37,061 nt of DNA from positions 25,001 through 62,061 of the forward strand of contig JAHBMJ010005841.1 of the NCBI GenBank assembly GCA_018398765.1, given 5' to 3'. How positions within the stretch are numbered: the first letter of the stretch is position 1; each line of letters opens with the position of its first letter. This DNA comes from Chromera velia (lineage: Eukaryota > Sar > Chromeraceae). Positions 4,481 to 32,653 of the stretch are shown here, one piece after another. The position numbers were made by a program, and so were the translations under genes. The notes beneath the pieces are model-generated. The model had not been told where the DNA came from. It searched no databases and was given only the letters and a program-made list of their open reading frames with translations.

Positions 4481-4902
4481 CCCCTCCCCCGAGAACGGAA
4501 GCAGCGGGATCCGTTGCGCGGGGGCACTTGCACGGAGTGTCTGGCATTGCGGGGCCGCGGCCTGAGACAATGAATTTCATTGAATTTCTGCATGTCAGAC
4601 TGAGAGTTGTCAGAAGTGAAGAGATGTCAACAGGACTTCGAAACGGTCATGGTGCGAGAGTGATCTGCCATTTCATGATCTGCCTCTGTACGTGTTTACC
4701 AAAGAAGAGCGTTGCTATCGGTCAGATTGAGAGAAAAGGCGCAACGTGAGGTGACTTTCACTTCCCATTCCAACCAAAGAGAATATATACGTCCCGCGTC
4801 TTCCATCTGCGTGAGCGCAGCGGTACTGAATTATTTTCTCGAAAAGCACAGCTGTACTCGTCCGACAAAAGTGAAAAGGGATTTGCAAATTCATATTTCA
4901 GT
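4481..4902. other. Upstream region of the KH-domain gene
   Basis: GC content rises again here. A perfect 10-bp palindrome GGCCGCGGCC lies near 4552-4561 and a TATA-like GAATATATAC at 4781-4790, about 110 bp before the chosen start codon. The sequence just before that ATG (TTTCAG) could be a splice acceptor, so a 5' exon in this stretch cannot be excluded. Confidence 0.35.
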
Positions 4903-6450
4903 ATGCTGGGATCTGTATCAGTTTTAGCGCGAAGCCCCTCTGAAGTGAGCGGACAGTCTGAGGAACAAAAAACGATCACACGAGTCTGCACTGTCTTGAG
5001 TGTCTCGCCCATTTCGCCGTCGGTATTTTCCGATGGCTTCTGGTCTGATTTCACTCTTGTCGGTGCCGAAGAGATGCTTGTGCAGGCACTTTCCACTGTG
5101 CATGATGCGGAACGAATTCCTCTGCGTATTCTGGTTGACACAGAGGTTTGTGAGAAAAACGACTTCAAGGACTTGATTGCGAATTCGGAGGGGTTCTTTG
5201 GGTTTCCTGTCCGGGTTTATCCAGAGACCACCTTCAGGGCTGACTCTGCTTCCTCTGACTCCCATACCAGACAAATCCTCACCATCTGCGATCGCGCCAA
5301 GTCTTCCCTCAAAGCAATCCGTGCCTTCGCTCCTTTCGTGATCAAGCGAAAGGAAAAAGAAGGTTTCAACACTTTCCTCAGGTGGCAACAGCAGAACAGT
5401 AGCAATCGGAATAACACAAACACGCACACCAACACAGGGGGCACCAATTCCCGTCTCTCCTCCCTTGATGCCTCTGAGGAAAGAGCAGGAGCCGCCGCCT
5501 CGATCCCAGACTACCCCCTCACCCTTCCCCCCAGCCCCGATGAAGGCACGATCACTGACACCCTTTCTCAGTATCCCCACCCAGCTTCTCAGCAGGGTGC
5601 GTCCTTCCCCTCAGCCTCCAACCACCACCTGTCCCCCGTGACCCCCTCAACAACGAACCCTTCCCATCAGTCCCCCAACTCCCTTCCCACCCTTCCCCCC
5701 GGCCACACGTCTGCTCACGGCATCACCATCGGGCCTCTCGTGCCCGTCTCGAACCAGAGGGGCCCGGGAGGGAACGGGTCCGCCCCCCTCCTAGGCGCCT
5801 CCCCCGGGGCTCTGGCTGAGCTCAAACACATGCAGACAATCTGGATCCCTGCACACAATGTGCCGAGGTTGATTGGGGCAGAGGGAAGCTTCATCCAGGA
5901 ATTCCAGAATAGATCCGGTGCAAAGATCAAATACTCCAACAATACGAATATGACGGGCATGAAGAACGCCACCGTCACCGGGACTGTGCGACAGGTGGGG
6001 ACGTGTGTGACCCTCATCCGTAACAAACTCGACTCCTGGGCAGCTCTCGACAACGCAGGACCCCATACGCATACCCTGTGGGTGCCCGACTCTCTCGTGA
6101 GTCAGGTGATCGGAAGGAAAGGGACGAAAATCCAAGAATTCCAACTCTACAGTGGGGCAGCCGTGTTCATCGATAGTCCTGAGCAGGCAGTGATGGGCAC
6201 CTTTGCGCAGGTGTGCAACAGCCTCGGGATGACTTCACCGGCACATCAGCGAAACATCGCAGAACAGCTCTACGTGATTCAGGTCCGTCTCAAAGTTTTT
6301 TTCTTTTTTTCGTGATTGTCAGCCTGCTGTCTCTCGCCCCTCCTTCCGGGTAGTTTTTTCTTTCGCGTCTGAACTGTCGGCCTTCTTTTTTTGCTTTGCG
6401 TTTCGCGCCGAGCTCTCTTTTCCCTCTTCTCTCTCTCTCCCTCTCTCTTT

Positions 6451-11579: not shown

Positions 11580-11966
11580 TTGATGATCGGGGGTTTTGTT
11601 ATGCATGCCGTATTCTCACATATGAGGGGCGGATCTAGCCTAGTTTGCAGCATTTCCGCCTTCCGGGCCCCTTCGCTGGGCCTTCAGAGTTCATAATAGT
11701 TCATGCAATTAGACAAAACCCTCAATCATCAATCAGTGTCTCAAAGGTTCTGCTCTGCATCCCCTCTGTCTCTTTTCTCTTTCTTTTGATTGTCCAACCT
11801 AGTCCAACCTGTTGTGAAGCCGCGATTGATCAGCTGTATCAAAGTGATCGAAGTCGCGCCTATTTTCGTCGCTGGTAGTTTTAGGACGGAACAAATCGAC
11901 AAACTAGGTTAGATCCGCCTCTCATATATGGGGACGCGGCATGCATGAAAAAACCCTCAATCAACA
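11580..11966. mobile_element. MITE-like element with long terminal inverted repeats (copy 1)
   Basis: The left end (11580-11647) and right end (11900-11966) are imperfect inverted repeats of about 65 bp, sharing in order GGGTTTT, ATGCATGCCG, ATATGAG, GGCGGATCTA and CCTAGTTTG. The element is about 390 bp and has no transposase frame. A second copy lies at 17373-17600. A clear target duplication was not found, so the exact ends are uncertain. Just beyond the right end, 11947-11986 could fold into a further hairpin. Confidence 0.7.
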
Positions 11967-12224
11967 ATGATGGTTGAGAGTTTTTTCAATCAACAATCAT
12001 CAATCTCGGCAGCTGGGTACAGCTGCATGAGGGTCGGATCAACTAGCTCTATCGAGAACAAATCATGGGAAATCTGATGATTTCTGACGTCAGCTTCAAC
12101 AATCAAACAGTCAATAACAGTCAAGAATCAGACTTTGGCAGAAGCGACCCAAGGAAAGGAACTTGACCGTCTTTAGCTCCATTGGTTTCCAGAGACCGAA
12201 AGAGAGATTCATCGGTATACAGAT
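11967..12224. other. Upstream region of the synapsin-like gene
   Basis: AT-leaning sequence with several ATCAATC-type words and no recognisable promoter element. The 5' end of the synapsin transcript may lie here. Confidence 0.35.
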
Positions 12225-13098
12225 TTGAATGCGCACAAGCCTGGAAGGACTCCTCTAGCTGCCAATCGTGCTTCTCTCAATCTGCGAGACGGCATCATGT
12301 TTACTTTCTTGAAAAAACCCTCTGCAGGGACGACAGAGCCGAGTAAACCGGTCACGCTTCTGGTCATCCAGAGCGACGCCTATGATTGGCCTACCATCTT
12401 CGGAGAGCGGTCCGCCAATGTGTATGATGTATATGTGAGGATTTCCCCTAATTCGCGTAGGACAACGTGTTCTAGCTAAAAATGCAGACACATGTGAAGA
12501 TTAAAGCATGTTTCCTGTTCGTGAAACCTTTCTCGCGTGGGGACTCATGCTCGCTTGACCTTGCAGGCTTGTGTGTGTGGACGGAATGTCCGTCTACCTG
12601 CGCTTCTGTGGTCATATTGTTTGCCGTCTCCGCCCTTCCATGCATGTACTTACTTTACTCTGGTATCCTGTTGTATCCTTGACGTGCCTGCCTTCTCCGA
12701 TGAAGGTCCACATATATTGGTGAAATTACCTGTCTTCCTGCAGAAAGCTGAGCAACGGCCGGCCAGTGAAGGTTGTGCAGACGGGGTGGCACGAGGTATT
12801 CGCACAAGCAGACAACTACTCTGCCAACCCGATTCTCGTGACTGTGCGGAGGGAGACGGGAGGGCTGAGGGAGGGGGGAAGCTCACCCCAGAGGTTGATG
12901 ATCAAGCCAGACTTCTTGCTGATCAGGAATGAGGTGGGTTCCGAAGCTGTGCGGTGTGCGTTCAAGAATGACCCCTCTCTCTACGGCTCTTGGTCTTTCC
13001 GTCTGTGAGAGAGGTAGAGCAAAACAGAGAAATTCGAAGAAGAGTGCAATACGATCCGTCTGTCTGTCCTTCTGTCTGCTGTGTTGCCTGCTTGGCTG

Positions 13099-13140
<42 letters not shown>

Positions 13141-14561
13141 GTCTAATTTGGATGTTATTTGGGCCTGATCGAATTGTAGCACAATCTTACGATCCCAGGC
13201 CTCCTATTGTTTCGTTTTCTTCCGACCAATCTTCTCCAACGTGCGCCTGACTGTTGCATTTTTGATTGCATAAGCGCAGGTACGCGAGCTGAACGACTAC
13301 CGGTCTCTCCTTTATGCCTTCATGTTCGCGGGCGTTCCCTCAGGTGAGTTAAACGGGGAGCAGGGGGGTAGTCGAAAGGGGTAGACCAAGTACGCGCAAG
13401 AGACTGAAGTGTGGTTGTAATGCTTTAGAAAGACTACTTTTGATAATTGAGTGTTATGGCACGAGAGGGAACGAAGGGGGTGACGAACAGAACTGGAAGG
13501 CAGGAAAGTCAGTGCAAGTCCGCGATTCATTATGACGGTGTTTGTTTGGCTCACGTTCCATCGTGCTTTGGAAGGGATTCACGTATCGCCATTCTGGGCT
13601 AGGGCAGTCAATCCGTGTGAGAATAGACAAACGGAAAGATAAGTGAGAGCAACGATGAACAGACAAATGGAAAGATAAGTGAGAGCAACGATGAACAGAC
13701 AAAAACGGAAAGATAAGTGAGAGCAACGATGAATGTTGGATAGATGGATGGATGGATACATGCATGCATGGATGTATGCAGTGAACAGTCTGGAATCTAT
13801 CTTTGCCTTCTGCGAGCGTCCCGTCATACAAGCAGCCTTGAACGCCCTGAGCAGGATGTGTGTCCAGAGGGGGGAGGCGCCACTCCCCCTGATCACCCAA
13901 CAGTTCTTCCCCTCCCACAAAGAGATGATGTACGCACAGCCATTCCCGTGTGTCGTCAAGGTTAGCCAATGTTTCCTTCTGTGAATGAAGGGGCAGAAAA
14001 GGTGGAGTGGTTGATGCCCCATCTCGAGATGGCCATGCTTTGTTTTGTCTGTCCTTTTTTCCCTCTCCGTCCCGTCTCTCGATCTTTCTCTGCGTGTCAG
14101 CTTAGACACCAGGCATGCACTTATTCGAATGCGATTGGGCGATTGGATCATTGTGTGTGTTGCATGCTTTCAGGTGGGACACGCACACGCTGGGTTGGGG
14201 AAGATGAAGATCCGAGACCATCACGACTTTGCGGACTTTCGCTCTGTGCAGGTTGGGTCAGGATCACCCCCCCCCCCCCNNNNNNNNNNNNNNNNNNNNN
14301 NNNNNNNNNNNNNNNNNNNNNNNNNNNNNNNNNNNNNNNNNNNNNNNNNNNNNNNNNNNNNNNNNNNNNNNNNNNNNNNNNNNNNNNNNNNNNNNNNNNN
14401 NNNNNNNNNNNNNNNNNNNNNNNNNNNNNNNNNNNNNNNNNNNNNNNNNNNNNNNNNNNNNNNNNNNNNNNNNNNNNNNNNNNNNNNNNNNNNNNNNNNN
14501 NNNNNNNNNNNNNNNNNNNNNNNNNNNNNNNNNNNNNNNNNNNNNNNNNNNNNNNNNNNNN

Positions 14562-14595
<34 letters not shown>

Positions 14596-14644
14596 GTGTA
14601 TGTGTATGTGTATGTGTTTGTGTGTTTGTGTGTTTGTGTTTGTG

Positions 14645-14679
<35 letters not shown>

Positions 14680-14805
14680 TGTGTGTGTGTGTGTGTGTGT
14701 GGATATGCGTGTGCGCGAGCGTGCATGTGTGTGTGAGAGAGAGGGGGAGAGAGAAAGAGAATGAGACAGAGAGAGAAGGAGAGGAAGAGAGAGAGAGAGA
14801 GAGAG

Positions 14806-14877
<72 letters not shown>

Positions 14878-16584
14878 TTTCACACTTCTTCGCCCTCCCC
14901 CTTTCCTTTTCTCTCTCCAGTCTTCTTTTTCTGCTTTTCGAACCCCCCTCTTCTTCCTCTGAGTGTGTATAGGCGGTGGACCGTGTGATCGTCAGACATC
15001 TGCATGTCAGCAAATAAGCTTGCGTGTTCACATGTTATCGCATGCATGCCGGTTTTTGTGAATCTTCACTCATTGATTGCAGGCCATGACGAACACGTAC
15101 TGCTCTGCCGAGCCGTTTGTGACCTCAGACTTTGACTTGCGCATCCAGAAAATTGGGGGCAGTGTGAGGACCTTCAAGCGCGTGGGCTTGTCAGGGGACT
15201 GGAAGACAAATACAGGCAGCTCGATGATGGAAGAAATAGAAACAACAGAGGAATACAAACGGTATGTATGATTGATCTGTTTATTGATTTTGTTTGTCTT
15301 CAGACGAATCAGCTGATCACGGGAGGGTCTCCTGACGCAGAATCATGCTTCTTTCTTCTGATCACAGAAAAGGTCTGCACTCTGATTGTCACATCGCTGC
15401 TTCGCATTCTTCTCTATACGCATGAAGATTGGTATATGTACTTGTCAGGTTGGTTGGAGCGCACAAAAGAAGGACAGCGGTGGACTGCATGTCGTTGAAT
15501 GATCTTGAATTCTTGCATTTGCGTCGGTGTCTTCCTTCTCAAGTCTTCAATGCCGCATTTCATTACATGACCTCACCTCGTGCCACTGCATAGGTGACCT
15601 TGAAGTTGAAAACAGTAGCTTAATTGATGCTCTTCGAAATGATATGATTCTTTTCACAACACCGATAATCATTCATTCACCTGAGCGTGACGCTGTTTGC
15701 GTTCCAAATTTGCTCTAGCTCATCCATGCAGATGGGTTGATGAGGCCTCGAAAATGTTTGGAGGCCTAGACATTTTGACCGTGGATGCTCTGAAGGAATC
15801 GGCGTCTGGAAAAGAGGTCAGTACGTCAGAGAGTCAATCAAATACGTCGACTTACGAGACGCATGGTCTCTCCTGTTGCTCTCTTGTGAAGTTTCAATGC
15901 TTTGCCTTTATTTTTCAGACATTTAAAATGCAGCAGACGCCAATGCTGCATTGACAGTCTTGGGCATGGGAAACGTATTGCCATGCAGGGAGTGCAGGTT
16001 GATCGAGTTTTATTCAACACAGATAAGTACGCGATGCGTGTGAAATTCTTCTTGCCTAGAAATATGCCGCCAGGCGTTTTGTTCTTCGAATTAATGTACA
16101 TGAAGATAGCTAGCTAATTTGCATTCTCTGCATGATTGCATACAGGAAGAAAGATTCGTTCCCCGCTTGCGACGCACACCTTTCGACCTTTCACTGGCTG
16201 ATCGTTTGTAGACGTCATGCGGTGTGTTTCACAATCTACTACTGTTATCGTCAAAAGGGGCCGCACTCTTTTGGAAGTGTTCCTATGTTTTCTAGATTTG
16301 TACTGCCTATCCGGATCCTTTGTTTCGATAGGAAGTGGATTTGTGTCAATTCTTTCAGGTCTCTGTGTATTTCAAAAATCGAGACGTCACCAGACAAGTC
16401 GCTTTGTGTGTTTCCATGCGTTTGTATTGAGTGGTATCACTTGTACCTAAAAATGCAGGTCATTTTGGAGGTAAACGGAACCTCTTCAGGTTTGCATCCC
16501 GAATACGCAGCGGAAGACAACGCTCAAATCAGGGACCTGGTTTTAGGTCGACTAGAAGAGCTTTTGGGGAGGGTGACAGACTAA
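12225..16584 (+). CDS. Synapsin homologue (ATP-grasp synapsin C domain), eight exons
   Basis: Animal synapsins are peripheral proteins of synaptic vesicles that bind ATP through an ATP-grasp fold. Exons: 12225-12421, 12744-12933, 13280-13343, 13782-13960, 14174-14251, 15083-15261, 15732-15816 and 16459-16584. All introns are GT-AG, phases agree at all seven junctions, and the product is 365 residues with a TAA stop. Matches to the animal C domain, in order: [77 protein letters not shown] (Lys 210), [13 protein letters not shown] (212-223), [17 protein letters not shown] (245-261), [15 protein letters not shown] (273-287), [20 protein letters not shown] (297-316) and [12 protein letters not shown] (325-336). 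The ATP-site lysines and glycine-rich loop are kept. There is no animal-type domain A phosphosite and no D/E tail. The start is uncertain: ATG 12297 or an upstream exon are alternatives. Intron 5 contains a gap. Its function in this organism is unknown. Confidence 0.93.
13083..13144. repeat. CT/TCTG microsatellite in synapsin intron 2
   Basis: A (CT)n run followed by TCTG units, inside the intron between exons 2 and 3. Confidence 0.85.
13625..13734. repeat. Three tandem copies of a 36-bp unit in synapsin intron 3
   Basis: Units at 13625-13660, 13661-13696 and 13697-13734 share AGACAAA, CGGAAAGATAAGTGAGAGC and AACGATGAA. The third is 38 bp because of two extra A. A short GGAT repeat follows, just before the exon 4 acceptor. 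Confidence 0.9.
14267..14875. repeat. C run, assembly gap and GT/GA/GAAA microsatellites in synapsin intron 5
   Basis: Thirteen C (14267-14279) precede 282 unknown bases (14280-14561). Then come (GT)n to about 14700, (GA)n, (GAAA)n at about 14808-14840 and (GA)n to 14875. The intron length is therefore not known. Long frames read through this stretch are artefacts. Confidence 0.9.
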
Positions 16585-17372
16585 AAAACTTGATCAAGAT
16601 TTGGTAAAGAAACGTATCAGTAAATTCTTGAAAATAACTAAAGAGTCAGTGTCAGAAACATATAATGAAGACTAGAGTGAAGAGCATCAATAACAATTAA
16701 GTCTAGATAGTAGGTGTTAATACCGTGTTATCGTGAACTCTTCAGCTTAGGCTGGGGAACGCCCCGCCCTGCTAGCTCTGGTGACAGATAGACATAGCGG
16801 GAAGGCCCTGGGGCGGAGCATATCAATCAGTCAATCAATCAATTGTGCCGCTTGTTTTTAAAACTTATGGAAGACCACGGGGGGGAGTAGTAAGGTTTTT
16901 GAAGGAAGCGGCAAAGTTGGGAGCAGGGAGGGTGAGGGGTGGGGAAGGAGACGAAGCAGTCCAACCAAAGTTGATAGACTGCTACTACAAGCTCTTGTCC
17001 TGCACTCTGTAGCGTTTTGTCGCAGCAAACCTTCTGTCCTCCATCCATAGCAGGAGGGGCACAAGGGGCCCCTTCCAGCCCAAGGGTCTGCTCGGGAGGG
17101 AAGTGGCCGCGTTCTCCGGGTCTTTTGACCGGGAGGGCGCAAACTGAAGGAATTTCTTTGGCAATGCGAGAAGACAGAAGAGGGATGGGTAAAAGTGCAA
17201 GCAAATGAATCGGAAAAGTTTGGAAAACTGCCAGTGAGTTTAAAGAAAGAGTTTTGATGGGGTGTTTAAAGCAGGAGTTCTTTGAAGGGATGGAAGACGT
17301 GCAGGATGCACCTCTGCACAATTAAAGTCTTTCTGATTAAAAGGGTAGCCTTTTTTCAATGAAAGAACTGAA
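16585..17372. other. Synapsin downstream region with a possible retrotransposon remnant
   Basis: An AT-rich 3' flank is followed at 16842-17010 by an open plus-strand stretch encoding IVPLVFKTYGRPRGG and more. This recalls the extreme C-terminus of some LINE-type proteins. The match is from memory and weak. A further readable fragment (FLWQCEKTEEGWVKVQANES) lies near 17147-17206. No intact gene is supported. Confidence 0.25.
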
Positions 17373-17600
17373 GTGTTTTGAAGGGTCTGCGCTGCATCCC
17401 CTCTGTCTCTTTTCTCTCTCTTTTGATTGTCCAACTTATTGTGAAGCCGCGATTGATCAGCTGTATCAGGGTGATTGAAGTCACGCCTATTTTTATCGCT
17501 GGTAGTCGTAGGACGGAACAAATCAACAAACTAGGTTAGATCCGCCTCTCATATATGGGGACGCGGCATGCATGAAAAAACCCTCAATCATTAATCAATC
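17373..17600. mobile_element. 5'-truncated second copy of the 11580 inverted-repeat element
   Basis: This stretch aligns in the same orientation with about 11730-11960. Shared words include CTGCATCCCCTCTGTCTC, TTGATTGTCCAAC, GTGAAGCCGCGATTGATCAG, CTAGGTTAGATCCGCCTCTC and ATATATGGGGACGCGGCATG. The left inverted repeat is absent, so this copy is truncated or was partly deleted. Confidence 0.85.
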
Positions 17601-20939: not shown

Positions 20940-23900
20940 CAGGTTGCTAGAGAAGGAGAGGAAGAATTCTGGTTCTCTGACAACAACTTTGAAGCTCTCG
21001 ATGAACATTGAGGGAGAGCAACCTACTGAACCCTACGTGTACAATCAGGTGAATATGATCGGCACTGCCAGTGCTGACGGGAAGGTGAAGAATCTGATGC
21101 TAGTGAAGATGATTCGCTTCCAGAGCACTGTTAAAGGCATTTCAGTGAGAGTGCTCTTAGACTGTGGGGTGGGGCAGACCAGGGTAGACATTTCTGTCTG
21201 CCCAATTCGCTCACGACAAAGGTCTTCTCATCAAGAAGATGCAAAGTTCGCGTCAGTGTAGGGGGGCCATCAAGGGAGAAGACGGGCAGACGGTGGTGAC
21301 TACGGTCAGTGAGTACACCAGTCCTCTGGCCTTCACCATTCAGGGGTACTACCAGAGAATGAAGTTCACTCTGGGCCTAAGTCTTTGGCTGACCTCGATG
21401 ATGACTATGATGTCTATCTGGGCATGAAGTGGCTGATCGAGCATGAGCCTGAGACTCGCATGCATTGGAGCAAGGAAGAAGTGGAGATTCCAATTTCAGA
21501 GGCTCATGAAAGGTCAGACTGAGTCACTATCAAGTCACAGACACAGACATCTGCCCGTACTCTTTCCAGCAGAGAGCTCAAAAGAGAAGTCAGGAAGGGC
21601 CGTGTGCAAGAGGTGTATCTTTGTAGGTTAGAAATGGTGGAGCCTGTGCTGGCCCCTGCGCTGATGACCCTGGAGGTAGAACCCCTAGGTGAGGCCTAGG
21701 GTGAGGCGAAAATGGCAGCGGCGATCAGAGAAGAGACAGAGAAGGAAGTGCCAGAAAGAGAGACAGCAGAAGAGAAGGCAGAGAGGGAGAAGGATGAAAC
21801 ACTCCATAGGGGGTGGTCAAAAGTCATGAGTGATCCCTCCCTCCACCCTGCAGCTCGATGGGTGGTGGGAGAGTATCGGGACATCTTTTGCGACGAGATC
21901 CCCAAGCTACCTCCAAGACGGTCAGTCAAGTTTGCAATTGATCTGGAGCCTGGACACCCCCCTCCCACTTGGCCGCCATACCGACTTTCTTTTGGAGAGC
22001 TTGATGAGATGAGGAGATAACTGGATGATCTGCTGGCAACTAGGCTAGCAAAAGGATTCATCCATCCCTCTGTTTCTCCGTTTGCGGCACCAGCCTTCTT
22101 TGTGGCGAAAAAAGATGGGAGTCTACGGATGTGCATCGACTACCGCACCATCAACAAGATCACAATCAAGGACAAGTATACGATGCCCAGACTGGAAGAA
22201 TTGTTGGACCGTCTCCACGGAGCAAAGATTTTTTTGGTCCTCGATATGCGGCAGTTTTTCTATCATGCACTAGATCATGCAGCTTCACATTCGACTGGGT
22301 GACGAACCGAAAACAGTGATGTGCACCCGGTACGGCAACTATGAGTAGCTGGTGATGCCTTTCAGGATGTGTAATCCACCCTAAAATCCACCGCTGACCA
22401 GCCAGCGAGCTATTCAGATTTGCCTTCGTGAAGTAACAGTTACTGTTCTAGATGACTGTGTATTTGCTTGGATTGATGATATCCTCGTGTACTCCCCAAC
22501 GGTCGACCCATACGAAGAGGATTTGCGGAGAGTTCTTGGAATCCGATGTCTGAGAAGAGACGAGTATTATGTGAAGATCTCCAAGTGTAAATTCTTTGTC
22601 CCGAAAGTTGTGTACATCAGGCTAGAGATCTGGGATGCAGGAGTGAGAGCGGTCTAGGAGCTGAAGAACGCAGAGCTCGTTCAGACTTGGCTGAAGCCTG
22701 AGAATAAACACGAGCTCCGTGTCTTTTTGGGACTGTGCAACTGGTTCCAGAGATTTATCTACAAGTACAGTCATATCACAGCCCCACTCACTTCTCTTCT
22801 CCAGGCAAAGGTCGAGTTCGTTTGGTCAGAGGTCTGTGAAGCAGCGTTCAAGGAGTTGAAAGAGAAGATTGCAGAATTGATTCTTCTCTTCATTCCAGAT
22901 CCCACCCGCCCTTTCGACTTGTATGTTGATACGTCAGAGAAAGAGATCTGTATCGTGGCAGCTCTGATGTAGTGGGATCCAAGAGTGAATGGACTGAGAG
23001 TTGTAGCCTTTGCTTCTAGGAAGCTCGTTCAAGCTGAGCAGAAGTATCCGATTCGGGAGAAGGAGCTTCTTACAGTTATGTTTGGAGTGAAGACCTTCCG
23101 CGTTTATGTGAATCATACCATGAAGATCTACTCCGATCACGAGAGCTTGAAGTGGCTCGGCACTTCAGGGGGTCTGATTAAAGGCCCCGACAGAGTGAAG
23201 AGATGGGCCATCTTCCTGAATACATTCGGCATTGTTCTTCAGTACATCCCTGGCTCCAAGAACGTTGTGGCAGACACGCTATCACATCGACCGTCTCGAA
23301 CCGGAACGCAGAAGCAGACAGGAGAGGAGAGGTCTAATAAAAGGGAAACAAACCGAATTGCGCAGGTGAAGAGCACTCAAAAGGTCTGTTCAGACCTTCT
23401 GGAAGAGACTCAAAGTTTCTACACCAAGTTAGGAAGGGGTACGCTCAAGACTCTTTCTTCAAGGAGCTCGTTCCCTAGCTTGTTCCTTTCCTCACTCATG
23501 CTCCCACCCAAGGCACCCCCCTTGCCTACCTGCATTTGCGTTTAAGTCATTTTTCGGTGAAGGAGGGACTTCTGTACTACAACCAGAGGAGACTGGCAAT
23601 CCCAACAAAGACACTGCAAAGGCAAGTCATTTGGGAGTGTCACGATTCTCCTTTGGCTGGGCACCTTGGCGTGGATAAGACCTACTGACGACTGGCTGCA
23701 GACTTCTTTTGGCCACACATGTGGAAGCGGGTGATGCACTACGTCGCTCACTGCGATGTGTGTCAAAGGAACATTGTCAAACCGTCGAACGAGAAGCCCG
23801 CAAGCCATGAAGTTCTCCAACCACTCCCTGTGCCAGAGTCTCCCTTTCACAATCTTTCAATAGATTTCATCACTAATCTTCCGCCTGTTTAGTTCAAAGG

Positions 23901-24970
23901 AGAGGTGGTTGACTTAATTATGGACGTGGTGTGTAGGTTGAGCAAGTGGGCGATCTTTGTTCCAACCAGAGAGACAGCCGGAGCCCAAGAGACAACACAG
24001 AAGTTTTTTGACAAAGTGGTATATGAACATGGCATACCACAATCGATTGTCTCTGATCACGACTCCAGGTTTATCTCACCTTCTGACAAACACTGTTCTA
24101 CCTGTGTAGAACCAAGCTTAAGATGTCAACTGCTCAGTATCCTCAGACAGACGGACAGATGGAGATCGAGAATCGGACACTTGAGCAGTCTGAGATGCTT
24201 CGGTGCTTTATCCTAGACCATCAGACGGACTAGCCTCAGCACTTGAATATGCTTGCCTTTGTAGTCTGCACGAGTGTCCACAAGTCGACTAGATTTACTC
24301 CGTTCGGTGTCGTTGAACAAAGAGATCCACTCACTCTCCCCAGTTCTCTCTGCCCCCACCCATCCTCACCTGAAGCTTCACAAGACTTGAAGGAGAGGGT
24401 GGACATCGTTCAAGAAGTGAGAGACCGATTGGAGAGAGTGAGGGAGAGAGCAGCACATTACTATAACTAAAGAAGAAGAAAAGAAGAATTCAAGCCTGGG
24501 GATTGGGTTAATATGGTCCATAGGAACTTCTTTACCGGAGCAAAGACACCGGAGGGAGATCGAAAGAATTTCAAACTTGCATATCTATGGTACGGGCCAT
24601 TTAAAGTAGACCGACGGGTCAGAAAGGTCGCATACGAAGTGGTGTTTCCTGAGGGGGTTAGAAGACATCCAGTTCTCCACGTGGTCTAGTTGAAGAGATA
24701 TTTACTGTAAAAATGACAGTCTAAAAAGAATCCTCCGCCGGTGCGCCTTCTACACAGTGACTTGGCTGAAGAAGAGCATGAAGTAGAGACAGTCCTCGAC
24801 AAGAGGAAGATCTGTTGTAGTGTGGAGTATCTGGTATACTAGAAAGGGGATTCAGAAGAGAATGCCACGTGGGAGCCATCAGAGAATCTTCTGAACGCTC
24901 GTTCAAAAATCAGAGAGTTTTTGGCGCAGCCTGGAAGGCCTCTTAAAGGGAGACGGGGAAAGAAGTGAGG
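20940..24970 (+). pseudogene. Pol-like region of the chromovirus: protease, RT, RNase H, integrase, chromodomain
   Basis: Approximate parts: protease-like 21040-21430; reverse transcriptase 21840-22640 ([20 protein letters not shown] near 22097-22156, and the catalytic box WIDDILVYSP near 22471-22500); RNase H 22690-23300; integrase zinc-binding region 23540-23790 (CDVCQRN); integrase core from about 23850 (LSIDFITNLPP); chromodomain-like C-terminus 24770-24940 (ATWEPSENLLNA). The chromodomain is what marks the chromovirus lineage. The region is a fossil, broken in many places. Confidence 0.85.
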
Positions 24971-28818: not shown

Positions 28819-29581
28819 CCCCACGCGAGGCCCCGCACGATCGACCACGAGAGAGAAGGAAAGTGAGGCAAACGCAGGCATACGAGCAGCCGAGGAGGAG
28901 AAGCGCCCCTTGATAAGAGAGGAGGCCGACCGTCTCATAGAGGCAGCCTACGGGGCCCCCAAAGAGCCAAGAGGGAAGCTCCCCCTCGCTCAGGGAAGGT
29001 GGGAGAGAGAGTGGATGCGTACACAGCGTCTACACCCCAGCGGGCAGTACGCATTCCCCAAAAGAGGCACAGGGAGGAGGCTAGTACGGCTGACGCAATC
29101 CCTAATTGCAGGGATTAGGAGCGGGGATAACCCAAGTGAAGCGCTCCTGCTGATGCTAGTCTAAGACCTTACTCTCCGGAGAGACCCCCGTATCAAAAAG
29201 GCAAAGAAAGTACGGGAGACCATCGAGAGTAGGCTAGATTTGTGGGAGCAGGGGGAGAAGGGAAGAGAAACCCTCCTTTAGGAGGCAACCAAAATTAGTA
29301 GAAGAGCCCACAGCAGCAGCAGGAGGGGGGAGAGCGAGAGCCGATCAAAAAGGGAAGAACTCGAGAAGGCAGCGGGCCTCCCCGAGATGAGGAAATTTCG
29401 AAACTTCATCTAGGCAGAGGAGATGAGGAGGGGAACACGGATACTGATAGGCTGAGAGAAAGGGGGAGTCCTGGACGGAGAAGATACCTTCATCAAGAGA
29501 GGACAAACCTACCAGGTAGCAGAGACTCTGAAAGCCAAACATCCCCCCGAAAAAACACCCTAAGCAGCAGCACTAGAAGCG

Positions 29582-31045
29582 ATGCCCAGAGAGGGCCTCC
29601 CCACCCTCACCCCCCTCCTAATCACCGAAGAGGACATTGCCGCAGTAGCACGCCGCCTCCAAGGCAGCGCGGGGCCATCTGGATTCGATAGTACACAGCT
29701 CCGCACCACAGTCCTAAGCCTAGGGAGGGAGAGTAGAGAGTTATGGAAAGAACTTGCCAACTTAGCAAGAGAAATGGGGAGGAGGGTGTTTGAGTGGGAC
29801 CAGGTGAAGGCACTCATGGCATGCCGACTGGTTGCGCTAGACAAATGCCCCGGGGTACGCCCGGTAGGAATCGGAGAGGCGATCAGGCGCCTCCTCGGAA
29901 AAGCAGTGATGAAGGAGACTAGAGAGGAACTGCAGGAGGCATGCGGAGCCGATCAGCTGTGCAGTGGCCTCATGGGAGGCCTGGAAGGGGGGATTCATGC
30001 AGTGAGGGAGCTCTGGGAGACCCTCACACAGGAAGCTGGCGACGACCCTGAGAAGCCATTCGGAACCCTCCTAATAGACGCCAAAAACGCCTTCAACGCA
30101 GTAAATCGCATAGTGGGGCTGTGGAATGCCCGCATACTCTGGCCCAGAGCCTCCACATTCCTCTTCAAGTGCTATAGGGGGGATGCAGAGCTCTTCCTAA
30201 GAGGAACCCACGGGACCACCACCATCAGCAGCAGAGAGGGATGGATGCAAGGGGACCCGATGTCGATGGCAGGGTACGCCATCACCATCCTCCTCCTCGT
30301 CCGAGCTCTCCGAGGCAGCGGGAGCGGGCAGACAGAAAGCGAGACACAGTCGGAAGCAAGCGGGAGCAGCCAGGTAGCCGGAGAAAAACAGATAAAGATG
30401 AGGGAGAGCAGACAGGCAGACAGAGAGACACAGTCAGAATCGAGCGAGAACAGCCAGCCGGACAGAGAGAATCAGACAGGGGCGAGTGAGAGCAGACAGG
30501 CAGACAGCAAGACACAGCCAGGAACGAGTGAGAGCAGCCAGCCGGATAGAGAAAATCAGTCAGAGGCGAGTGAGAGCAGACAGGCGGACAGAGAGACACG
30601 GCCAGGAACGAGTGAGAGCAGCCAGCCAGACAGAGAGAATCAGTCAGGGGCGACAGGGAGCAGACAAGCAGACAGAGAGAATTGGCCAGAGGCAAGCGAG
30701 AGCAGCCCGACAAACAGGGAGAAACAGACAGGGGCGAGAGACAGAAGACAGGAAGCTGAAGAGCATACATCCACCGCCACAACCACTCATACGCCAAACC
30801 AGACAGGAAGAGAGGACAACCTGATACACAAGACAGGTAGACAGGCAGCCGTCCTTTCATCATCTTCAGCTTCCTCCCCCATTCTATCCCCCCCCTCCTC
30901 TCCCTCCCCCTCTTCCCCCTCCCCCTCCTCCTCCTCCCCCTCCTCCCTCCACTCGGACCACCCCTCAGCTCGCCCACCCGCCCCACCCCTTGGCGATTCG
31001 CACCGCACAGCATCGTCCTCTTCAGCCGCCTCCGCGTCGGCCTGA
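29582..31045 (+). pseudogene. Reverse transcriptase block of the LINE-like element, motifs 1 to B plus low-complexity insert
   Basis: A 487-residue open frame. Residues 28-40 read LQGSAGPSGFDST. VALDKCPGVRPVGIGEAIRR is at about 82-101. The catalytic motif A (LIDAKNAFNAVNR, with the first Asp) is at about 162-174. Motif B (GWMQGDPMSMAGYA) is at about 220-233. From residue 247 to 386 the frame is a perfect-period repeat array, and from 387 to 485 a Thr/Ser/Pro-rich tract. Motif C (YADD) is not in this frame but follows about 120 bp after its stop. The true start of the protein is upstream, because related sequence is readable before the first ATG. It would copy the element's RNA at a nicked genomic target. 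Confidence 0.75.
30321..30740 (+). repeat. Ten in-frame 42-bp units inside the reverse transcriptase
   Basis: Ten consecutive 42-bp units (14 codons each) fill exactly 420 bp. From 30405 they alternate in two types, forming four 84-bp higher-order units (30405, 30489, 30573 and 30657). The encoded 14-mers are of the type ESRQADRETRPGTS and ESSQPDRENQSEAS, strongly hydrophilic. Confidence 0.9.
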
Positions 31046-31141
31046 AACGGAAGTGACTGGTTTTTCACAGCAGACAGATGGAGTGCAGGGGTAGCAGCCG
31101 GAACGGAGAAGAAAAAGCAATAACAGCAGGAGCCCGATCCC

Positions 31142-31573
31142 CCCCAGAGATACTGGCACCAGCTCTGGTATGCGGATGACGCATCCAATACCGGCTGGTT
31201 GCGCCAGCTGCGAGCATGGCTGCGCGAGTTAGTCAAGAGGGGGCCTACGGCAGGGTATATAGTGGAGGTGGACAAGTTGATCCTTGCAGTGCTCCCGCAA
31301 TTTGTGCAGAAAGCCAAAGAGATTTTTGCAGAGTTCCCCGACCTGCAGATAGTAGAGGGGACGCGTCTCCTAGGGGGGCACGTAGGTACGGACGCACACA
31401 GAGAGAAATGGGTGCAGAAGAAGGTGAAGGAGTGGGCTGGAAGCGTGGAAAGAGTCGCAACAGCAGCAGAATTTGCCCCATACGAAGCATACGCAGCCTG
31501 TTCAAAATCCTTGCAGCACGAATGGAAGTTTGTGGCGCGGGTAGTGCCAGGAGCGGGGGGACAGATGGGGTAG
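31142..31573 (+). pseudogene. Reverse transcriptase motif C and thumb-like block of the LINE-like element
   Basis: Opens with QLWYADDASNTGWLRQLRAW, containing the YADD catalytic box of LINE reverse transcriptases. It continues with GPTAGYIVEVDKLIL and IVEGTRLLGGHVGTDAHREK, typical of the region after the active site in this family, and ends at a stop at 31571-31573. It has the right order relative to the 29582 block, so both belong to one element copy. Confidence 0.75.
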
Positions 31574-32653
31574 CTGGAAGGCACGATCAGAGACCGCCTC
31601 ATCCCCGCCCTGATGAAAGGACGACGGAACGGAGGGCCCCCTACCCAACATGATGTATGGCTGAGAGACGTTGCTGCCCTTCCGGTCCGACTGCTAGGCC
31701 TAGGCATCCCCAAACCCACCGAAACAGCGGACAGGGACTACAAGACCTCAGCCGCAGCCAGTGAAGCGATCACAGAGGCCATCCTTCGAGGAGAGGACAT
31801 AGACACAGACGAGCACGTGAAGAGGGGGCAGAAGGCAAGGACAGCCCAGAAAGAAACAGTAAAAGAAGCAGTAGAGAAGGAGTGGGAGAGGTTAGGCAGC
31901 CAGTCAGGGCAGGCAGCCAGTGAGGACCAGTGTGAGGAAGTCAGGCAGTCAAAAGAAAAGAGGCAGTCAGGATGGTTGACAGCCACCCCCCTGAAGGAAC
32001 ACAGAATGAATCTCAGCCCAGACGAATTCCGAGATGCGATGACCATCCGATACCAGGGGAGGGTAGGGGGGGAGAAGAGCAGATGTGAGGGATGTGGGGG
32101 AAGGTGGAGTCTGCAACATGCCCTTAACTACCCAGTCGGGGGACTGCCGACGCTGCGACATGACGAAGTCAACCGTACGTGGGCGAGTCTAGCAGCGGAA
32201 GCATACCCCGTGGGAGCGGTCCACGCAAAGGAGCCGATCATTAGGGAGGAAGGGGAGGTACAGGGATGTCCGGCGCTAAGGGGGGACTTCCAAGTCCGGG
32301 GGGCCTATGTTCCACAAAGGCTGGCAATTTTCGACACCAGGGTGATAAACCCACACGCCGTCTCGAGGGAGAAGGTGACCTGGACTCAAGCCCTCAAAGC
32401 AGCAGCAGAAGAAAAGAAGAGGAAACATGGGCAGGCAAGCGCGGACAGAGGGTGCGAATTCACTCCACTCGTGAGTGCGGTCGACGGGACGATGGAGGGG
32501 GAGGCAAAGATGTTCTTGAAGAGGGTGGCAGAGCGATTAAGTGAGAAATGGAGGCAACATGTGAGCAAGACATGCGGCCGGATCCAAGCCCGACTGCAGA
32601 TTGCCCACCTGAAAGTGGCAAGCGCGTGCATTCGGGGGACCAGAGGAGTGTAA
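31574..32653 (+). pseudogene. C-terminal block of the LINE-like element: zinc-ribbon-like motif and conserved FDTRV domain
   Basis: The open frame reads through [20 protein letters not shown], an acidic/Gln-rich linker, and a CxxC...H motif ([20 protein letters not shown], near 32086-32145) in which the usual second Cys is not seen. It then has [38 protein letters not shown] and [12 protein letters not shown], ending ACIRGTRGV with a stop at 32653. In LINEs with restriction-like endonucleases a CCHC knuckle precedes a PD-(D/E)xK nuclease. The order here is compatible, but the nuclease assignment is inference. Confidence 0.65.

Follow-up and report, generated by a model that had tools for sequence, protein, structure and literature searches.

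We have analyzed a stretch of 37,061 nt from Chromera velia (assembly GCA_018398765.1, contig JAHBMJ010005841.1, positions 25,001–62,061 of the forward strand; hereafter the window, to which all unqualified coordinates refer), which carries a gene of the synapsin family. According to frame and splice analysis of the DNA, the gene consists of eight exons on the plus strand (12297–16584), separated by seven introns, all of the GT–AG type; the exon start phases are 0/2/0/1/0/0/2/0, and the joined reading frame is free of stops. This confirms the initial annotation, which had joined eight exons in phase. The same annotation gave a protein of 365 residues beginning at 12225; its exons and joins stand, but the length does not, as the predicted product counted from the ATG at 12297 has 341 amino acids, in an intact reading frame, and the longer version arises from 24 in-frame residues upstream of this first ATG, beginning with TTG at 12225.

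All exons are supported by the reading frame and by their splice joints. Pfam also covers exon 1 (12297–12421, with the ATG start) and exon 2 (12744–12933), which encodes the N-terminal pre-ATP-grasp domain, and exons 3 (13280–13343) and 5 (14174–14251) are both matched in PDB. Exon 4 (13782–13960), containing R139 (rat K225) and K186 (rat K269), and exon 6 (15083–15261), containing the loop residues W252 and K253 (rat W335 and K336), are recovered both by the Synapsin_C search and by alignment. Exon 7 (15732–15816) carries D290, the first residue of a proposed metal triad, and exon 8 (16459–16584, ending with a TAA stop) carries the other two, E304 and N306, both exons being supported by alignment; the spliced protein contains the motif VILEVNG. 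Intron 5 includes an assembly gap of 282 N (14280–14561) and, behind it, simple repeats that extend to about 14875. Intron 3 contains a 42-nt unit in three tandem copies, spaced at 36–38 nt (13618–13733), and a dispersed repeat (pieces of 67 and 167 nt, 90–92% identical) flanks the gene on both sides in the same orientation (11735–11968 and 17372–17595). The contig that carries the gene is 62 kb long, the whole assembly comprising 177.8 Mb in 4040 contigs, and a Synapsin_C profile search of this genome, with four candidates scored, yielded two matches, both from this gene (exons 4 and 6).

The window protein scores 216 bits with Pfam Synapsin_C (curated cut-off 22.5, E 5.1e-64) and, directly before it, 42.5 bits with the Synapsin N-terminal (pre-ATP-grasp) domain (cut-off 23, E 8.1e-11, residues 16–126). 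At E≤1 no other Pfam family matches it, RimK included. A PDB search returns synapsins only (four distinct sequences) below E 0.1, the best being synapsin II (E 1.6e-70); these three E-values exclude a chance origin of the similarity. The single NCBIfam match at E≤1 is the alpha-L-glutamate ligase MptN, which reaches 26.3 bits where the cut-off is 350. Hence the earlier assignment to synapsins rather than to generic ATP-grasp ligases is upheld, even though the ATP-grasp fold and the ExN motif are common to the window protein, RimK-family alpha-L-glutamate ligases and glutathione synthetase.

The domain content was compared in an alignment (A1) of the window protein with 76 of its 120 best database matches (out of 429). 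Both synapsin domains (PF02078 and PF02750) are found in 77 of 77 members, and 11 of the 77 match Pfam RimK as well (best E 3.7e-06). The animal A domain (PF10581), which holds the N-terminal phosphorylation site, matches neither the window protein nor any other A1 member (0/77), while it is present in all but two (P0143 and P0147) of the 120 best of 1303 matches to a human synapsin-3 query. Moreover, the window protein stops nine residues past the Synapsin_C match, leaving no further C-terminal domains. As the A domain is not found and the protein ends so soon after the C domain, it represents the synapsin core (N and C domains) rather than a synaptic synapsin of animals; the description "full-length" thus holds for the conserved core and fails for the A domain. 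With vertebrate synapsins I, II and III (PDB 1auv, 1pk8, 1i7l, 2p0a) this core is collinear and keeps the equivalents of rat E305, W335, K336 and E386, these and other pocket residues being common to vertebrates and protists; in contrast, no A domain is found in it, it has no tail past the C domain, and it differs at D290 and N306.

To describe these two positions we used an alignment of 268 database proteins, the window protein, rat synapsins I and II, and four RimK-type outgroup proteins. Its 149 rows outside the vertebrate set are the window protein, its best 120 of 429 matches and 28 matches to a Lokiarchaeota query described below; the 122 vertebrate-type rows are the best 120 of the 1303 synapsin-3 matches (117 of them named, all vertebrates) and the two rat proteins, with no invertebrates. 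D290, E304 and N306 (window numbering) are invariant in 149/149 rows outside the vertebrate set. The vertebrate-type rows retain Glu at E304 (122/122), whereas D290 is replaced by K in 121 rows and by E in one, and N306 by M in 120 rows and by V in one, with a gap in the remaining row. Eleven columns are invariant throughout the 149 rows (a gap counted as a departure), and the vertebrates differ at just two of them, D290 and N306. The RimK-type outgroup has the Glu and Asn of ExN in all four proteins, the Asp being aligned in two and facing a gap in the other two. In the alignment, D290 and E304 are equivalent to rat Glu373 and Glu386; beyond this pair, we take D290, E304 and N306 to be the canonical ATP-grasp metal ligands. 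The change of two of them in vertebrates, compared with all 149 other rows, appears to be new within the literature searched. Glu373 and Glu386 of rat synapsin I coordinate Ca, according to the accessible part of PMC9678998, and by position with respect to them D290, E304 and N306 are proposed as metal ligands.

The family to which the gene belongs is both old and widespread. At E≤1e-3 the window protein has 429 database matches, of which the best 120 were examined; the highest identity is 57–58%, with no near-identical protein found in this search. Listed among the matches are proteins of two dinoflagellates (Effrenium voratum and Durusdinium trenchii), the diatom Thalassiosira exigua, the chlorarachniophyte Lotharella globosa and the haptophyte Haptolina ericina. 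The search with the Lokiarchaeota gene adds a synapsin of Balamuthia mandrillaris (P0259), a synapsin-domain protein that carries the database name asparaginyl-tRNA synthetase. A synapsin in a protist is no exception: in addition to the matches above, synapsin-related sequences of the protozoans Naegleria and Entamoeba were published in 2010 (Candiani et al., 2010, PMC2825198), where, in the portion of the text at our disposal, similarity of the C domain is described. These are likewise single-core relatives outside animals and are set apart from the window protein by description only, as in the latter the N domain scores too. The accessible part of the same paper gives no synapsin for a sponge, a placozoan and Monosiga; an excerpt of PMC6823388 has it apparently absent from Amphimedon, and a survey from 2021 that covered 13 species, as far as its available sections go, finds it in animals only (PMC7934909). 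The surprise at a protist synapsin therefore owes largely to the sampling of earlier surveys and not to rarity in databases.

The family also reaches archaea. A scan of a prokaryote species collection with two peptide patterns, which could overlook other prokaryotic relatives, matched 16 stretches, of which one locus, in a Lokiarchaeota metagenome-assembled genome (MAG), was confirmed. Its gene (JAFGBX010000346.1, L003:2995–3885) is intronless and encodes 296 residues, the product scoring 176.4 bits with Synapsin_C and 25.2 bits with the N domain; in PDB it matches four synapsin sequences (E 4.5e-53 to 2.9e-50), the next match having E 0.015, and its weak NCBIfam matches, LysX and RimK, are far below cut-off. 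A protein search with this gene listed 28 matches, eight of which are of the Asgard type: the named Lokiarchaeota (P0241), Hodarchaeota (P0244) and Heimdallarchaeota (P0248) proteins and five clustering with them. Seven of the eight are 46–86% identical to the query. In 227 genomes of the phylum of the Lokiarchaeota MAG, taken as Asgard, a Pfam search found matches in eight, six of them above the cut-off; the matches reach synapsin strength in two genomes (177.5 and 224.5 bits), the remaining six lying at 20.8–39.5 bits. Of these six weaker matches four were scanned: L009 and L010 are RimK proteins, and L006 and L007 are intermediate. The latter (L006:1300–2127 and L007:1081–1965) are ATP-grasp proteins between RimK and synapsin, with 39.0 bits for Synapsin_C against 38.9 bits for RimK in L006, and it is possible that they represent the stem of the synapsin family.

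A second Asgard gene read on DNA (L005:2–655, contig C589 of genome G036) is of the Heimdallarchaeota type, also intronless, and has the metal motif ELN. The Asgard synapsins P0241, P0244 and P0248 share with the window protein the N and C core, the D-E-N site and the W-K loop; in contrast to it, their genes lack introns in the two cases read on DNA (L003 and L005), the six unique lengths listed for complete proteins span 296–308 amino acids, and ELND stands in place of EVNG. We considered eukaryotic contamination as the source of these matches and rejected it, as neither of the two genes contains an intron and their neighbors and base composition suit prokaryotic bins. On the Lokiarchaeota contig the neighbors identified by Pfam are GatB, a thiamine pyrophosphate enzyme, a D-Ala ligase-like protein, a thioesterase and a TrmB regulator, and one further frame, of 413 aa, has no match; the neighbors on the G036 contig have a prokaryotic look, as judged by eye only. 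The base composition of the Lokiarchaeota synapsin contig is 61.5%, compared to 57.9–64.0% in seven other stretches of the same bin (G001), and is higher, 65.7%, in the 6.9-kb piece around the gene; the G036 contig has 30.1%, compared to 27.8–31.3% in three readable stretches of its bin, a fourth (L028) consisting of N throughout and being left out. A viral source was likewise rejected: 13 pattern matches in viral contigs, obtained with two narrow patterns, yielded no confirmed locus. No published report of an archaeal synapsin was found in the titles and abstract openings of the open-licence PMC literature, and the Asgard occurrence thus appears to be new within the literature searched.

A tree with an outgroup was built for 77 rows, namely the window protein, 40 of its 120 matches, eight Asgard-type proteins, 17 of the 20 other Lokiarchaeota-query proteins (three short ones being left out), five of the 120 synapsin-3-query proteins, two rat synapsins and four RimK-type proteins. 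In it the 73 synapsin rows are separated from the four RimK-type rows, which have long branches, with support 100/100. The vertebrates group with the clade of the window protein and at least two other rows at 99/94. When the outgroup is left out, the resulting unrooted tree separates the eight Asgard rows, on the side of the branch opposite to the window protein, from 65 other synapsins at 100/100, the vertebrates form a group at 100/100, and the window protein with the 40 window-query rows forms a 41-row clade at 99/89 with the vertebrates outside. The vertebrates and this clade alone do not make up a clade there. In the tree with the outgroup, no well-supported subset inside the clade of the window protein contains that protein. 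With this distant, long-branched outgroup the Asgard clade has a support of 85/51, which does not place the root, and descent between Asgard archaea and eukaryotes could have run in either direction. The proposal of a pre-neural origin of the synapsin family, made in the initial annotation, is supported by these data and extends further than was suggested, to Asgard archaea.

On balance, we favor the reading that an intact nuclear gene of the synapsin family, carried by a photosynthetic myzozoan, here encodes a metal-dependent ATP-grasp enzyme, the catalysis of which would have been lost on the way to vertebrates; sequence comparison makes this probable, if by no means certain. Synapsin would then have begun as a metal-dependent ATP-grasp enzyme that is intact in the alga. 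Enzymes of this fold convert a carboxylate to an acyl phosphate, which a nucleophile, in most cases an amine, goes on to attack. The window protein would bind ATP together with a divalent metal ion coordinated by D290, E304 and N306, the W252–K253 loop may close over the bound ATP, and a ligase-type reaction could follow on an unspecified carboxylate substrate. The weak NCBIfam matches are all to amino-acid ligases (MptN for the window protein; LysX and RimK for the Asgard one), which suggests a similar substrate. The protein perhaps acts as a tight dimer, as in crystals of animal synapsin; synapsin dimers and tetramers are mentioned in the accessible text of PMC2922380. In vertebrates, replacement of the Asp and Asn of the site would have left a Ca-binding oligomer that is regulated by ATP and clusters vesicles; the fold would thereby serve a derived role without catalysis. 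The longer history is more tentative, and we give it slightly less than an even chance: an ATP-grasp enzyme may have been inherited from Asgard archaea at the origin of eukaryotes and may still be active in protists and some Asgard archaea, the vertebrate line having lost two of the three metal ligands and turned the protein into an ATP-gated vesicle glue.

The strongest competing account of the function is that the protist protein is a non-catalytic, ATP-gated scaffold, the role commonly assigned to animal synapsins, and clusters secretory or trafficking vesicles, and that this role merely became specialised at synapses. Vertebrates and protists share the equivalents of W335/K336 and E305 along with other pocket residues, and in animals ATP binding favors synapsin I oligomers and vesicle clustering, as stated in the accessible part of PMC9678998. 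Against this, the A domain is found in none of the A1 members, the two canonical metal ligands lost in vertebrates are kept in every one of the 149 other rows and are not obviously needed by a pure scaffold, and the protein also occurs in Asgard archaea; we regard the scaffold as rather unlikely, though to be taken seriously. A generic ligase of the RimK or glutathione-synthetase type, mislabelled as synapsin, has the common fold in its favor, together with the RimK matches of the 11 A1 members and the 26.3-bit match to an alpha-L-glutamate ligase. It is very improbable given the Synapsin_C score of the window protein without any RimK match at E≤1, the exclusively synapsin hits in PDB below E 0.1, and the 100/100 separation from the RimK-type rows, long-branched as those four are. 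As to the family, this alternative is already contradicted, while the enzymatic kinship on which it draws stays within the favored explanation of a metal-dependent ATP-grasp enzyme.

Two further alternatives concern ancestry. Asgard synapsins might have been transferred from an early eukaryote and not be the source of the eukaryotic gene, which is compatible with an enzymatic function of the Chromera protein and which we hold to be a genuine, if lesser, possibility. The rarity of strong synapsin matches in the Asgard group (2/227 genomes) would fit such a transfer, but the eight Asgard-type rows lie together on one side of the 100/100 branch, nested in no sampled eukaryotic group, and seven of them show the identity to the Lokiarchaeota query noted above (46–86%). 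Animal contamination, or a recent transfer from an animal, would agree with the 13-species survey restricting synapsin to animals, at least in the available sections of PMC7934909. We consider its probability negligible, as the top matches are of the protist type with identity up to 57%, the window protein lies inside the 41-row clade (99/89) that excludes vertebrates, and the 62-kb contig belongs to an assembly containing divergent COX1 copies and a petB-like gene with TGA as Trp. A check of whether the contig is animal DNA thus gave a negative answer, and the same organelle genes bear out its description as DNA of a microbial eukaryote.

Several points weigh against an enzyme lost in vertebrates. 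The exon joins are predicted from DNA alone. Conservation of the site reflects selection and not turnover, and ATP-driven oligomerisation could conserve it as well. When columns conserved in at least 95% of rows are considered, vertebrates differ also at L146, R241 and G311, so the change is wider than the metal site. The 149 rows were selected by similarity to queries carrying the Asn, which favors Asn in the sample, and for most of them a non-animal origin is assumed; on the other side, all but two of the 122 vertebrate-type rows stem from a single synapsin-3 query, with no invertebrate compared. Finally, synapsin was not found in a sponge, a placozoan and choanoflagellates according to the accessible parts of PMC2825198, PMC6823388 and PMC7934909; given these gaps around animals, simple vertical descent needs several losses, or the history was more complicated.

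The reason for the enzyme fold of synapsin and the origin of the family are old questions, and the broad non-animal family, the invariant D-E-N site and the Asgard reach make both testable; it should also be possible to date, on the animal tree, when Asp and Asn were lost. If an enzyme was indeed inherited from Asgard archaea, its substrate in protists would show the role of synapsin before synapses.

As to the organelle genes, COX1 matches are present in the same genome on contigs C4001 (three), C4038 and C2371. The copies are divergent and, where fetched (L014 and L016 on C4001; L015 on C4038), AT-rich, one of them lying in an open frame of 623 residues; they look like the recombining mitochondrial DNA of myzozoans. 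The sole match to cytochrome b (PF13631), of 212 residues, is on C213 (L018:1498–2136, minus strand). It needs five TGA codons to be read as Trp, as TGA is in the Chromera plastid, and given its length and its position beside frames that resemble psbH and atpA by eye, we read it as a plastid cytochrome b6 (petB)-like gene. Families of the RuBisCO large subunit and the photosystem II reaction center had no match in the genome, so that the assembly holds no more than a part of the plastid genome; if Chromera encodes its RuBisCO, of form II, in the nucleus, the RuBisCO miss is unexpected. The PF13631 search gave no second cytochrome b match that could be mitochondrial cob, which fits the loss of cob in Chromera velia stated in the accessible text of PMC9550989. 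For comparison, the published Chromera assembly, as described in the available part of PMC4501334, differs in its figures: it comprises 5953 scaffolds totalling 193.66 Mb, transposable elements make up about 30 Mb, and the introns exceed those of Vitrella in size.

The retroelements said to flank the synapsin gene are borne out in part. Reverse transcriptase and RNase H domains score at 22385–23542, in two of the separately scanned pieces of a retroelement (22385–23545), but the frames at 29564–32650, described as resembling long interspersed nuclear elements, have no Pfam match at E≤0.01, and neither has the frame at 23893–24213. Elsewhere in the window, an exon-sized frame (822–1103) matches PLDc_2 with 33.5 bits and has the active-site motif of phospholipase D, and a long frame at 4750–6315 with two KH-domain stretches is apparently a host gene for an RNA-binding protein.

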